64,000 nt of DNA, from the NCBI RefSeq assembly GCF_019430945.1, contig NZ_JAHYCB010000001.1, forward strand, positions 496,001 to 560,000, read 5' to 3'. Positions 18,868 through 22,319 of this stretch are shown here, one piece after another. The position numbers and the translations under genes were made by a program. How positions within the stretch are numbered: the first letter of the stretch is position 1; every line of letters begins with the position of its first letter. The DNA is from Neorhizobium populisoli. GTDB taxonomy: Bacteria; Pseudomonadota; Alphaproteobacteria; Rhizobiales; Rhizobiaceae. The notes under the pieces are model-generated. The model worked only from the letters and a program-made list of their open reading frames with translations, had not been told where the DNA came from and searched no databases.

Positions 18868-19908
18868 TCAGAGATAGAAATCGCCGGCATACATCTTGGT
18901 GACGCCGGTTACCGCGATCTGGAAATCCGCGACCCCGTCGCCATTCACGTCACCGGAAACAATACCGCCGCTGAACCGCAGTTCGCCTGCCTCGCCAGAA
19001 AACGCCTTTGAGCCGATGAATTCGAAATTCTGGTTGCCGCCGAACGTGGTGTCCGCGTCGATGGCGTGCAGGTCGATATAGTCGTCTTCGCTGGCGTAGA
19101 AATCCTGGATGACATCGCGCTTGGATCCGACGGCGCTCTCCGACCACGTCGTGAAGACAAACGTGTCGGCACCCGTGCCGCCATTCAGGTAATCCATACC
19201 GGAACCGCCGTAGAGCTTGTCATTACCGGAACCGCCATAGAGCTTGTCATTGCCGCTGCCGCCGTAAAGCGTGTCATTGCCGGCCTTGCCGTCCAGAATG
19301 TCGTTGCCACCGTCGCCCCAAAGCTTGTTGGCGACGGAGGAACCGTAGATCGTATCCGCTACACCGGTGCCGATGGCATTCTCGATGCTGACCAGCGTTT
19401 CCTTGTAGCTCGTGCCCTTGGTTGCTGCGACACCCTTCTGCAGGTCGATCGACATGCCGCGGCCGGAAAGATCGGAATCCTCGTCCTGCGTCTCATAGCT
19501 GATCGTGTCATTGCCGGAGCCGCCATTGAAATAGTTGCGGAAGCCGACCGAGAAGAAAGCATCGTTCCCCTCTTCGCCGTAATAATCGCTGTGATAGGTC
19601 GATACTTCGAACTTGTCGTTGCCAAGGCCGCCGTAGACGACGTCATAATATTTGGAGGAGGTCGAGAAACCGGTAGCAATATACGAATCGTTGCCGGAAC
19701 CGAGATCGACGCGATTGCCGCCTTCGAAATAGTTGCGCACCAGATCGTTATCTGCGCCCGCATAGACGGTGTTGAAGCCGCCGTATTTGCCGGTGAGGTT
19801 CAGATAGATGCGATCATTGCCGGCATAACCGTAGATGGTGAGGTCGTGGCCGTAATCATCCTGATAGATGGTATTGCTGCTATTCGTACCCTTGACTACT
19901 GCCGCCAC
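18868..19908 (-). CDS. RTX-type calcium-binding secreted protein
   Basis: 346-aa protein made almost wholly of hemolysin-type nonapeptide repeats. The best run, around residues 196-240, reads GGNDILDGKAGNDTLYGGSG and continues with near-identical GNDKLYGGS units. Degenerate copies fill the N-terminal part. The last ~100 residues (DTFVFTTWSESAVGSKRDVI to the C-terminal DFYL) resemble the serralysin-type C-terminus with a type I secretion signal. Start is GTG at 19908, with AGGAGG 5 nt upstream. No signal peptide is present, as expected for type I export. No ABC exporter, membrane fusion protein or enzymatic domain is found nearby. A role as a surface or biofilm Ca-binding protein is inferred. 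Confidence 0.88.
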   Translation of the reverse strand: MAAVVKGTNSSNTIYQDDYGHDLTIYGYAGNDRIYLNLTGKYGGFNTVYAGADNDLVRNYFEGGNRVDLGSGNDSYIATGFSTSSKYYDVVYGGLGNDKFEVSTYHSDYYGEEGNDAFFSVGFRNYFNGGSGNDTISYETQDEDSDLSGRGMSIDLQKGVAATKGTSYKETLVSIENAIGTGVADTIYGSSVANKLWGDGGNDILDGKAGNDTLYGGSGNDKLYGGSGNDKLYGGSGMDYLNGGTGADTFVFTTWSESAVGSKRDVIQDFYASEDDYIDLHAIDADTTFGGNQNFEFIGSKAFSGEAGELRFSGGIVSGDVNGDGVADFQIAVTGVTKMYAGDFYL

Positions 19909-20091: not shown

Positions 20092-21189
20092 TCACACATA
20101 GGCCGTGAACATGAAAGTCGCCACCAGCAGCGCCACGATCAACGGCAGCGCCCACATGACCGCCGCGTAGGCCTGTTCCTGAACGTAGCGACCGAACATT
20201 TTCTCGACCACGTTGAACCGCGAGAAGAGGATATTGATGACCAGGGCCGCCGCGAGCGTCAGATAGTTTAACGCAAACAGCCGGTTGACCGTGTTGTCCC
20301 CCACCGACAGCGCCGTAAAGCTGCTGTAGACGGTAAAATTCAGGGCAATGACCGCAAAAAGCCCGCCGATGATGATATTCACCAACTCGAACGTATCGAC
20401 CTGGAAAATTCCATCTTCCGTCCGGTTCAGCCAGATGGCCAGAAGCGGGATGAGCAGCGAAGCCATCAACGGAATAAAGATCGATGCAACGATCAAGCCC
20501 GGCTTTCGCTGCATGTCGAGTGCCGCAACGACCTGAGATTCGGCACTATTGTACCACCCCTTGGCCGCGCCGGTTCGCATATCGACAAGACCGATCATCC
20601 AGTCCTGGATTTCGACGTCCTGAGACGGCCGGCTGAACTCGATATCGGGTTGGGTAATCCGCAGCGCGACCTGACCAACCGGATAATCCTTTACCCGCAC
20701 ACGCACCGGCAGGTCCTGCCGATCGAACGGGAAACGATTGAGGTCGATATCGACGGCGAAATTGCCCGTCACGCGGTGCATCAGCTCCATGCGTCCGGTC
20801 GGGTAGATCCGCAGCCCATAATCGGACTGGCTCGGCTCCCCATCCGCGTTGGCGATCACCAGCGGTGGAACCCAGATGGATTTCATCTTTTCGCGTGCCG
20901 CATCGCCAATCAGCGTCTGCGGCGGCGCACCGGCAGGCGCCGAGGGATCGGAGAGACGCAGATCGTCCCATCGCGCCCGGATATCGATCGTGGCGGAAAA
21001 CTGGCCCTTGTTTTCATCGAAGCCGGAAATGTCGACGAAGGCGATGCCGAGCTGTACCTCGACCGGCAGGCCCTTGTCGGGCGGCAGACCGGTATCATTC
21101 TGCGCCGCCGCAGACGCAACAAAGGCGATCACGGCCAGCCCTAGCGCCAGGAAAAGAGAACGGAAAGGAAGGGTCATCGCCGGCCTCAT
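20092..21189 (-). CDS. Pentameric ligand-gated ion channel (prokaryotic Cys-loop receptor homologue)
   Basis: 365-aa protein with a signal peptide (to about residue 29), an extracellular beta-sandwich domain (~35-225) and four membrane spans. Family hallmarks are visible: W106-V-P108 in the ligand domain, the Pro-loop NRFPFDRQDLPV at 151-162 (no Cys pair, as in other bacterial members), M1 with its central proline (IVASIFIPLMASLLIPLLAI, 233-252), a pore-lining M2 (FELVNIIIGGLFAVIALNF, 267-285), M3 (~303-323) and M4 (~341-363). The M2-M3 stretch resembles GLIC of Gloeobacter. The ATG overlaps the stop of the upstream sensor gene (ATGA), so translation is coupled. Ligand and ion selectivity cannot be read from the sequence. 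A weak AGCCCG/CGGGCT hairpin follows at 20052-20076. Confidence 0.9.
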   Translation of the reverse strand: MRPAMTLPFRSLFLALGLAVIAFVASAAAQNDTGLPPDKGLPVEVQLGIAFVDISGFDENKGQFSATIDIRARWDDLRLSDPSAPAGAPPQTLIGDAAREKMKSIWVPPLVIANADGEPSQSDYGLRIYPTGRMELMHRVTGNFAVDIDLNRFPFDRQDLPVRVRVKDYPVGQVALRITQPDIEFSRPSQDVEIQDWMIGLVDMRTGAAKGWYNSAESQVVAALDMQRKPGLIVASIFIPLMASLLIPLLAIWLNRTEDGIFQVDTFELVNIIIGGLFAVIALNFTVYSSFTALSVGDNTVNRLFALNYLTLAAALVINILFSRFNVVEKMFGRYVQEQAYAAVMWALPLIVALLVATFMFTAYV

Positions 21190-22319
21190 TTCGAAGCGTT
21201 GGCGAGCCGATGGGCCCGGACTTTGTCGTAGAACTGGGCGATCGGCCGCATTTCGTCCGGAAAGCGATCGGCACCGCCGATTTCGGTAAGCGTGTCTCCG
21301 TTGGAAACCTTCTCGAAACCTTCCGACAGAACTTGCAGCGGACGGGTGATGAAACCGCGCAGGATGGTGACCACCACGCCGGCTAGAAGCAGGATGGCGA
21401 TACCGGCAAAAGCGGCCTGCCAGATGAACGTGCGGTCGGCGGCGGCGCGCGAGCCGCTGAAATCCGCCGTGGCGACGATGACCCCAAGCGGCGTGCCGGA
21501 AACATTCGTAAGCGGCAGCAGAACGACGCCGCGGACGATGCCATTCACTTCGCGTACATAAGTGACGGGCTCGTTGACGACGGCAAGGTCTTCCGGTGTG
21601 GCAACGGACGACATCAGAACGCCATTGGTCGATTCGAAGCGGATATATTTGCCGAAACGATTCTGATCCCCGAGACGCTCCGGATCGATGCCCTTGGCCA
21701 ATTCGCGCAGCGGCTTCTCTTCGACAAACACGCCGAGATCGAAATTATATGCCGATTTCAACGAGGCCAGCAGCGGTCCGAAGGCGATGCCGACCTCGAA
21801 ACTGCCGAGATGTTTGCCGCTCGCATCGAAGACCGGCGTGCCGCCGAAAATGCCTGGGCCATTGGCGGCGATCGCCCCGCTTTTCAGCGGAACCTTGTCC
21901 CGGTTGAGTGCAACCACCATGGGCCGCGTCGTCGTCAGGTCGTCGCCGAACTTGTTCGGATCGTGCAGGCGAAGGAAGGATTGTGCCGGCGCAAGATGAA
22001 ACTGCGCCTGGTCGACGCCGTGGCGGTTCTTCTGATTGGTGAACATCTTGCCGAGTTCAGCCATCAGGCCCGCGCGATCCTGCGCAGCGAAGAGCTGCTG
22101 GACACGCGGCAGATCGGCAATCAGCTCGGCCCGCGCCAAAGCCTTGTTTTGTGCGTCGGAAAGCGCTGTTTCGACGATCGACTGCATCAGCGTGAACTGT
22201 TGCTTCTCCACATCGCCGACCATGCCGGCGAAGAGCCGCATGGAGGAGAATGTCGTTGCGCCGATAACCACCGCGATAGCAATCACGATGGCGGCCGGAG
22301 CCGATTTCCTGAATTTCAT
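21186..22319 (-). CDS. dCache-HAMP membrane sensor without output domain
   Basis: 377-aa protein: N-terminal membrane span (~10-31), a long periplasmic double-Cache region (~32-295), a second span (FAGIAILLLAGVVVTILRGF) and a HAMP-like segment (TRPLQVLSEGFEKVSNGDTL) that runs to the end. The block QFHLAPAQSFLRLHDPNKFG followed by DDLTTTRPMVV is typical of the dCache_3 type that precedes chemoreceptor or kinase modules. Here no methyl-accepting, kinase, GGDEF or phosphatase domain follows. Translation stops 4 bp into the ion-channel gene. AGGGGG stands close before the ATG, and a GGCCCG/CGGGCC hairpin lies in the leader (22333-22348). I infer that it senses a small molecule and works with the channel. 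Confidence 0.85.
   Translation of the reverse strand: MKFRKSAPAAIVIAIAVVIGATTFSSMRLFAGMVGDVEKQQFTLMQSIVETALSDAQNKALARAELIADLPRVQQLFAAQDRAGLMAELGKMFTNQKNRHGVDQAQFHLAPAQSFLRLHDPNKFGDDLTTTRPMVVALNRDKVPLKSGAIAANGPGIFGGTPVFDASGKHLGSFEVGIAFGPLLASLKSAYNFDLGVFVEEKPLRELAKGIDPERLGDQNRFGKYIRFESTNGVLMSSVATPEDLAVVNEPVTYVREVNGIVRGVVLLPLTNVSGTPLGVIVATADFSGSRAAADRTFIWQAAFAGIAILLLAGVVVTILRGFITRPLQVLSEGFEKVSNGDTLTEIGGADRFPDEMRPIAQFYDKVRAHRLANASK

Follow-up and report, generated by a model that had tools for sequence, protein, structure and literature searches.

Does a periplasmic sensor protein that carries no output domain, encoded directly ahead of a pentameric ligand-gated ion channel (pLGIC), form one receptor with that channel, or do the two merely share a transcript? 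Bacterial pLGICs are cousins of the nicotinic and GABA receptors, and for most of them it is, to our knowledge, unknown which signals they respond to in nature and what they do for the cell. The window analysed here, a 64,000-nucleotide stretch of the Neorhizobium populisoli genome, holds sensor and channel as two intact genes on the minus strand (Table 1). An earlier note on this DNA had reported that the stop codon of the sensor gene overlaps the start codon of the channel gene in a 4-bp ATGA; this is so, and the overlap likely reflects translational coupling of sensor and channel. As same-strand neighbours consisting of a stand-alone Cache gene and a pLGIC gene, the two form an operon of the kind predicted by Tasneem et al. 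A scan for promoters and terminators around the pair gave a signal close to that of shuffled sequences, and a plasmid collection contained no match to the channel.

Table 1. Features of the sensor-channel gene pair, with positions in the window; the prime numbers of the pore helix are what we take them to be from the alignment with GLIC.
Feature	Position	Strand	Length or basis
Sensor gene: TM1, double Cache (dCache_3), TM2, HAMP-like tail, no output domain	21186..22319	-	377 aa
Membrane-distal Cache module, sensor residues 47-186, fold like the CitA citrate-binding domain	21762..22181	-	
Membrane-proximal Cache module, sensor residues 194-286	21462..21740	-	AlphaFold secondary structure
TM2, most hydrophobic part, sensor residues 302-320	21360..21416	-	Hydropathy; model helix 288-339
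HAMP-like cytoplasmic tail, sensor residues 321-377, missing in part of the family	21189..21359	-	
ATGA 4-base overlap of sensor stop and channel start	21186..21189	-	
Channel gene: pLGIC subunit, Pro-loop type	20092..21189	-	365 aa
Periplasmic ligand-binding domain, channel residues 37-230	20500..21081	-	Neur_chan_LBD match
Loop F, channel residues 180-186: clade-specific D182, near-invariant S186	20632..20652	-	
Loop C turn, channel residues 211-215: clade-specific Gly-Trp	20545..20559	-	
M1 helix, channel residues 232-253	20431..20496	-	
M2 pore helix, channel residues 266-290; E268 acidic at -1', F278 at 9'	20320..20394	-	GLIC alignment and conservation
M3 helix, channel residues 300-324	20218..20292	-	
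M4 helix, channel residues 334-364	20098..20190	-	

Scans for the ligand-binding domain (PF02931) gave matches in 12 of 297 genomes at the level of the family, 24 of 397 at that of the order, 5 of 385 at that of the class and 7 of 398 at that of the phylum. From these overlapping genome sets came 46 channel places, of which 45, the window included, were examined in context (L091, on a 3-kb contig, was left out). The adjacency of channel and output-less sensor on which the earlier note had built its proposal recurs in 23 of the 45, all in one well-supported clade and all with the sensor directly upstream. The other 22 places had no sensor homologue within up to 16 kb, and they include one (L088) where only about 430 bases of contig precede the channel frame and an upstream sensor would not be visible. 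Scored with a clade profile made from the paired members, the paired channels of this set reach at least 398 bits and the unpaired ones at most 135. As such, pLGICs in general need no sensor, and having this partner is a trait of a single channel clade rather than of bacterial pLGICs at large. The doubt whether rhizobial relatives carry the channel alone is thereby settled in part, in that all 13 channel loci in the window's own family (in 12 of 297 genomes) are paired, whereas other pLGIC clades of the order are not.

Linkage inside the clade, though not the position of its borders, was measured by searching 84,980 species genomes with the clade's pore-helix signature, a query that finds the clade itself. 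Of 81 relatives found, the best 80 were kept, and all 80 of these loci have the sensor immediately ahead of the channel. Two of the sensors (L101 and L110) are incomplete where the contig ends, and in L104 both genes are broken. The 80 loci are labelled as 64 from Pseudomonadota, 5 from Myxococcota, 3 from Acidobacteriota, 2 from Verrucomicrobiota and 6 unassigned. All scans combined give 103 paired loci, 92 of them distinct, and 90 once L101 and L104 are left out for the trees and the tail counts. Gene order is fixed, with the sensor first, even though some members are only 20-25% identical to the proteins of the window. In 75 of the 92 distinct pairs the channel frame is open from an ATG or GTG that shares 4 bases with the sensor stop. 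In 16 others the spacing of the nearest in-frame channel start ranges from an overlap of 1 base to a gap of 34 bases, the last pair being the broken L104. No third gene family is common to the loci, none being present in more than 15 of 90. The commonest other neighbour family, in 15 of 90 loci, varies in place and orientation, and an example member has a kinase ATPase domain. Two pairs are present in at least three genomes: G1422 and G075 have one from each of the two groups described below, and G360 has two from group B. At L089, a pLGIC locus outside the clade, a gene for a phosphonate-type binding protein lies 28 bp downstream.

Counting from the sensor leads to the same picture. When five candidates per genome were scored in 397 genomes of the order, 11 sensor matches of 322-407 residues (after trimming) were found at E<=6e-110, exactly those adjoining clade channels. 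The next match had an E value of 3.6e-66 in a 675-residue frame, and further down, among the matches listed, the frames were of 583-808 residues with three exceptions. These three exceptions, short frames that might have been solo sensors (288, 225 and 221 aa; E<=1e-10), each run up to the edge of a contig and were set aside. In 57 genomes of the genus, with up to 35 candidates scored per genome, ten channel and ten sensor places (sensor E<=6e-114) lie side by side in the same 9 genomes, and the next sensor match follows at 4.4e-49. Weaker Cache matches in other genomes of the genus are mostly in frames of more than 700 residues. Six of them (E 9e-46 to 2e-19) sit in frames of 264-538 aa, none with a gene of this channel clade nearby; by eye, four continue past the second transmembrane helix in the manner of chemoreceptors (two of these run into the end of a contig and one has a masked stretch), and the remaining two end inside the Cache domain and are broken genes rather than complete sensors. 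An accidental pairing would be expected to show the sensor beside unrelated genes as well, but neither scan revealed an intact output-less sensor of the clade away from a channel; rare solo sensors may still occur elsewhere given five (order) or up to 35 (genus) candidates per genome. Exact co-occurrence in 9 of 57 genomes, together with the complete pairing in the family, bears out a stable partner, as the earlier note had envisaged, and a dedicated one.

The window sensor matches dCache_3 at 87.8 bits (cut-off 25.7), as do all 23 members of the sensor family that were scanned (E<=0.01), and an AlphaFold model with a mean pLDDT of 94.8 places two Cache modules between two long helices. At E<=1 the window sensor gave dCache_3, sub-threshold matches to HAMP and DUF4179 and nothing else; VWA and dCache_1, the domains of alpha2-delta subunits, were not found at this threshold, and an MCP signalling domain was found neither in the window sensor nor among the families matched by the 23 members. 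The transmembrane helices are poorly conserved in the family alignment. The earlier statement that the protein ends right after HAMP is too strong, as the HAMP match of the window sensor reaches 16.3 bits against a cut-off of 25 and only 1 of the 23 members scanned has a match at E<=0.01. The cytoplasmic tail is of HAMP-like size (at least 51 residues) in 61 of 90 sensors, 21 residues long in one, and no more than 13 residues in 28. These 28 short-tail sensors are exactly one clade, with a support of 99 in the channel tree and including Bosea, Rhodopseudomonas, Bradyrhizobium and Acidovorax, and they keep the pair nonetheless. The idea that HAMP is the general relay is therefore ruled out, and as the pair persists without this part, a mechanism common to all pairs should lie in the periplasm and the membrane.

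In the channel tree the 90 paired channels are separated by one branch (support 100) from 20 unpaired channels, L079 and L090 having been left out of the 22 as partial, and in the sensor tree the 90 sensors are separated by one branch (SH-aLRT 100) from 19 chemoreceptor-type relatives; both outgroups are small and the trees are of a quick kind. Of 43 channel splits with support of at least 95, 41 recur in the sensor tree, with no conflict at that level and 8 conflicting split pairs at the weaker threshold of 80. The matching trees give no sign of partner exchange, and block transfer of the operon is also expected to produce the same linkage and the same match. Within the pair clade there are two groups, A (31 pairs, including that of the window) and B (59 pairs). 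The effective number of sensor-channel pairs is about 40, which we judged too few for an analysis of coevolution between the proteins.

The nearest relatives of the sensor that were found are dCache_3-HAMP chemoreceptors (MCPs): among the ten long relatives scanned of the 19 collected, MCPsignal and dCache_3 are present in all ten and HAMP in nine. We infer from this kinship that the sensor descends from a chemoreceptor and not the reverse. To call the sensor truncated, as the earlier note did, is thus right by descent, but misleading for an old and stable family that stands apart from its relatives on a fully supported branch. Since the sensors form one side of this branch, a recent frameshift or truncation of a chemoreceptor is ruled out and the reading as a decayed fragment is rejected; relatives likewise have no frameshifted chemoreceptor in its place, and both genes are broken at one locus, L104. 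Sensor and chemoreceptors have near-fixed residues of the distal module in common, R117, D127, R132, N139 and G154 being present in 87-90 of 90 sensors and in 19 of 19 chemoreceptor-type relatives, which suggests that the sensor has kept a ligand pocket of the chemoreceptor type. They differ in that the sensor lacks the signalling domain and, for group A, in one position of the putative pocket. Between group A and group B the putative pockets differ at position 158. The distal module resembles CitA in fold, with a weak sequence match (E 8e-4), and the position aligned with the CitA arginine, which we take to be R107 with a role in citrate binding, is F in 29 of 31 group A sensors and R in 19 of 19 relatives. 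A CitA-like ligand was accordingly dropped, and because of this F in the window's group no ligand is named here.

The window channel matches Neur_chan_LBD at 59.9 bits (Pfam cut-off 26), and a profile built from 79 clade channels and 5 others, 84 in all, aligns with GLIC over the ligand-binding domain and all four transmembrane helices (best E 4.8e-52). Judged by these alignments, it is a full-length pLGIC subunit. Its description as a Cys-loop-receptor homologue holds for the ligand-binding domain and the four transmembrane helices and fails for the loop itself, which is a Pro-loop: the cysteine pair of the animal type is absent, and just 1 of 90 members has a cysteine near the Pro-loop. Such a pair is not known to be required in prokaryotic pLGICs. 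W74, F153-P154-F155-D156 and R228 are kept in 97-100% (weighted) of the 90 paired channels, which thereby show the aPaD motif, the W of strand 2 and the basic residue at the end of the ligand-binding domain named as pLGIC features by Tasneem et al. (PMC549065). All 31 channels of group A and 52 of the 59 in group B have an acidic residue at the -1' position of the pore, which suggests that the clade channels are probably cation-selective.

What sets the paired channels apart lies in loops C and F. W212 of loop C is present in 89 of 90 paired and 0 of 20 unpaired channels, the loop C segment has a length of 31 in 90 of 90 paired channels versus 1 of 20 unpaired ones, and the loop F position D182 is kept in 87 of 90 paired channels (E in the other 3), with a gap in 15 of 20 unpaired ones. 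Loops C and F of known pLGICs are exposed on the outside of the binding domain, within possible reach of a neighbouring protein anchored in the membrane; the changes could instead mark a new small-molecule site. In group A the M1-M2 stretch is also longer, at 29 residues in 31 sequences versus 22-24, and may touch the sensor tail, which is always present in that group; we regard this as a lead only.

That the two genes work together is, on this evidence, close to certain, and that their products form a complex is probable. We consider it rather likely that they are one receptor built from two different subunits, in which a pLGIC forms the pore and a dedicated transmembrane Cache protein without a signalling tail acts as the sensor and modulates the pore upon ligand binding. 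The sensor would bind a small periplasmic molecule and pass the resulting change to the periplasmic domain of the channel, in all likelihood on its outer side near loops C and F, with the outer transmembrane helices perhaps also involved, and so shift the chance that the pore opens. For the step in which the ligand signal passes from sensor to channel, we put the chances somewhat above even.

Roles of the sensor in packing, assembly or expression would leave the same traces, and a channel with a complete ligand-binding domain could bind a ligand of its own. The sensor might accordingly hand a metabolite to the orthosteric site of the channel, or concentrate it there, without being a gating subunit. 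Tasneem et al. proposed this for Cache and periplasmic binding-protein (PBP) partners (PMC549065), and the full ligand-binding domain of the channel with its conserved loops C and F would fit, as would the binding-protein gene beside the pLGIC at L089, outside the clade. The Cache module is, however, held by two transmembrane helices and is no mobile carrier, and its chemoreceptor kin place the same domain ahead of a signalling domain, so that we think this unlikely. We hold it equally improbable that the sensor serves mainly to fold, stabilise or place the channel, ligand sensing being secondary or absent. Sensor-first order, the prevalent 4-base overlap (75 of 92 pairs) and the strict linkage all fit such a role, and Cache-bearing alpha2-delta subunits act in expression and trafficking (PMC9016415, PMC9420018), yet the near-fixed R117, D127, R132, N139 and G154 speak for a pocket that is kept for a ligand.

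A connection with chemotaxis, in which the sensor would team up with complete chemoreceptors or with kinases and the channel would act on motility, was likewise suggested by Tasneem et al. (PMC549065) and accords with the kinship of the sensor to dCache_3 chemoreceptors. In ten pair-bearing genomes picked outside the rhizobia, chemoreceptor domains (MCPsignal) were above cut-off in five and sub-threshold only in one; the remaining four, metagenome bins by their labels with completeness not given, had no MCPsignal match. With these four genomes and the sub-threshold one on the other side of the balance, and with 28 of 90 sensors lacking any cytoplasmic part able to join a HAMP domain or a kinase, this connection seems very improbable. 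Chance neighbourhood or a decaying chemoreceptor is the least credible account of all: the pair is patchy (9 of 57 genomes of the genus) and both genes are broken in L104, but the conservation of gene order over several phyla among such divergent members speaks against it, and accidental neighbourhood is refuted by the linkage data. A two-subunit receptor thus remains the reading we prefer.

The pairing idea is itself already in print. Tasneem et al. (2004, PMC549065) described fusions of Cache with pLGICs and a predicted Rhodopseudomonas operon in which the Cache protein is separate from the channel; they suggested that the two proteins cooperate and proposed ligand concentration and chemotaxis. 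Three Rhodopseudomonas loci (L119, L122 and L132) fall inside the present clade and are probably that gene pair. The accessible text of that account describes the pairing for one bacterium, without a count, a tree of the Cache partner, the HAMP-like tail or a channel signature, and its proposal of chemotaxis contrasts with the presence of the pair in genomes without a detected chemoreceptor. New in the present study are the breadth and strictness of the pairing, the kinship with chemoreceptors and the dispensable tail. In the accessible part of a 2016 survey of Cache domains (PMC4822843), the ion-channel column covers alpha2-delta-type domains in the same protein and is empty for dCache_3, and neighbouring genes lie outside the analysis. 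Among the matches listed in our literature search, which covered mostly journals outside subscription, there was no later report of a Cache protein as the partner of a pLGIC.

In full-length architecture the window channel is the same as GLIC and ELIC; the clade channels differ from these by a distinctive loop C (GW), a distinctive loop F and a dedicated membrane sensor. We know of no dedicated sensor partner of this kind for GLIC. In one other genus, the gene downstream of ELIC-like channels encodes a Cache protein of a different sort. DeCLIC is alike in adding a periplasmic module to a pLGIC (PMC9897478, PMC12664993), but there it is an N-terminal domain of the same chain, in contrast to the separate membrane-anchored protein described here. 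The alpha2-delta subunit of animal voltage-gated calcium channels is likewise a Cache protein that partners an ion channel (PMC9901441); it has dCache_1, other extra domains and a channel of another family, so that the likeness is one of analogy and not of membership.

When the Cache domain was first described, it was as a module shared by subunits of calcium channels and receptors for chemotaxis; in the present pair, a Cache protein with chemoreceptor kin goes together with an ion channel. If the two-subunit reading is true, an auxiliary sensor subunit for the pLGIC receptor family exists in bacteria, and a domain of the chemoreceptor type can control an ion pore in place of a kinase pathway. 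The ligand of the sensor's Cache domain would give a candidate signal for the channel. Tentatively, and with somewhat less than even confidence, we suggest that Cache-gated channels of this kind are widespread, their opening being set by a separate subunit recruited from chemoreceptors rather than by the ligand-binding domain of the pore itself; they would be a bacterial counterpart of the partnership between Cache subunit and ion channel in animal calcium channels.

Within the same order, another genus encodes an ELIC-like pentameric ligand-gated ion channel (pLGIC) in four genomes (loci L069, L072, L073 and L074; E 1.5e-71 against ELIC for the L073 channel), where the gene order is PLP-dependent decarboxylase, ELIC-like channel, other Cache membrane protein and, at the three loci viewed that far (L069, L072 and L073), an MFS transporter or a frame of matching size. 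The decarboxylase gene immediately precedes the channel and carries Pyridoxal_deC at all four loci, and both of the decarboxylases scanned (L073 and L074) exceed the NCBIfam glutamate decarboxylase cut-off. It has already been published that ELIC adjoins a putative glutamate decarboxylase (PMC3119659). Pfam matches were obtained for the Cache membrane protein 3' of the channel in 3/3 scanned (L069, L073, L074) and for the MFS transporter that follows it in 2/2 (L069, L073); at L072 a frame of similar size occupies the transporter's place. The Cache protein downstream of the ELIC-like channel makes this a second pLGIC-Cache neighbourhood, different from the sensor-channel pair.

Other features at and around the pair and its relatives are collected in the table. 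The pLGIC of L089, which lies outside the paired clade, has no Cache sensor and is followed by a binding-protein gene. At 5 of the 90 pair loci, genes related to the CorA-like gene of L153 lie downstream on the same strand; the 6 members have a median gap of 49 bp. At L104, in one genome, frame breaks split both sensor and channel, reflecting either joint decay or sequencing error.

Coordinates of features at the pair and related loci
Feature	Location	Strand	Remark
Related Cache domain	G000:C50:264014-264892 (L205)		window's genome
Sensor residue 158	window 21846-21848		aligned with an arginine of CitA
Split sensor and split channel	L104:3962-6052		
Phosphonate-type periplasmic binding protein	L089:6414-7298	(-)	28 bp downstream (3') of pLGIC
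RTX calcium-binding repeat protein	window 18868-19908	(-)	about 180 bp downstream of channel, same strand
CorA-like transporter	L153:5990-7027	(+)	

The related Cache domain elsewhere in the window's genome sits within a 727-residue ORF that looks, on inspection by eye, like a complete chemoreceptor. Position 158 of the sensor is arginine in all 59 group B sensors and in 19/19 chemoreceptor-type relatives, whereas it is phenylalanine in 29 of the 31 sensors of group A, to which the window's pair belongs. Judged from this residue difference, group A and group B sensors may therefore bind different ligands.
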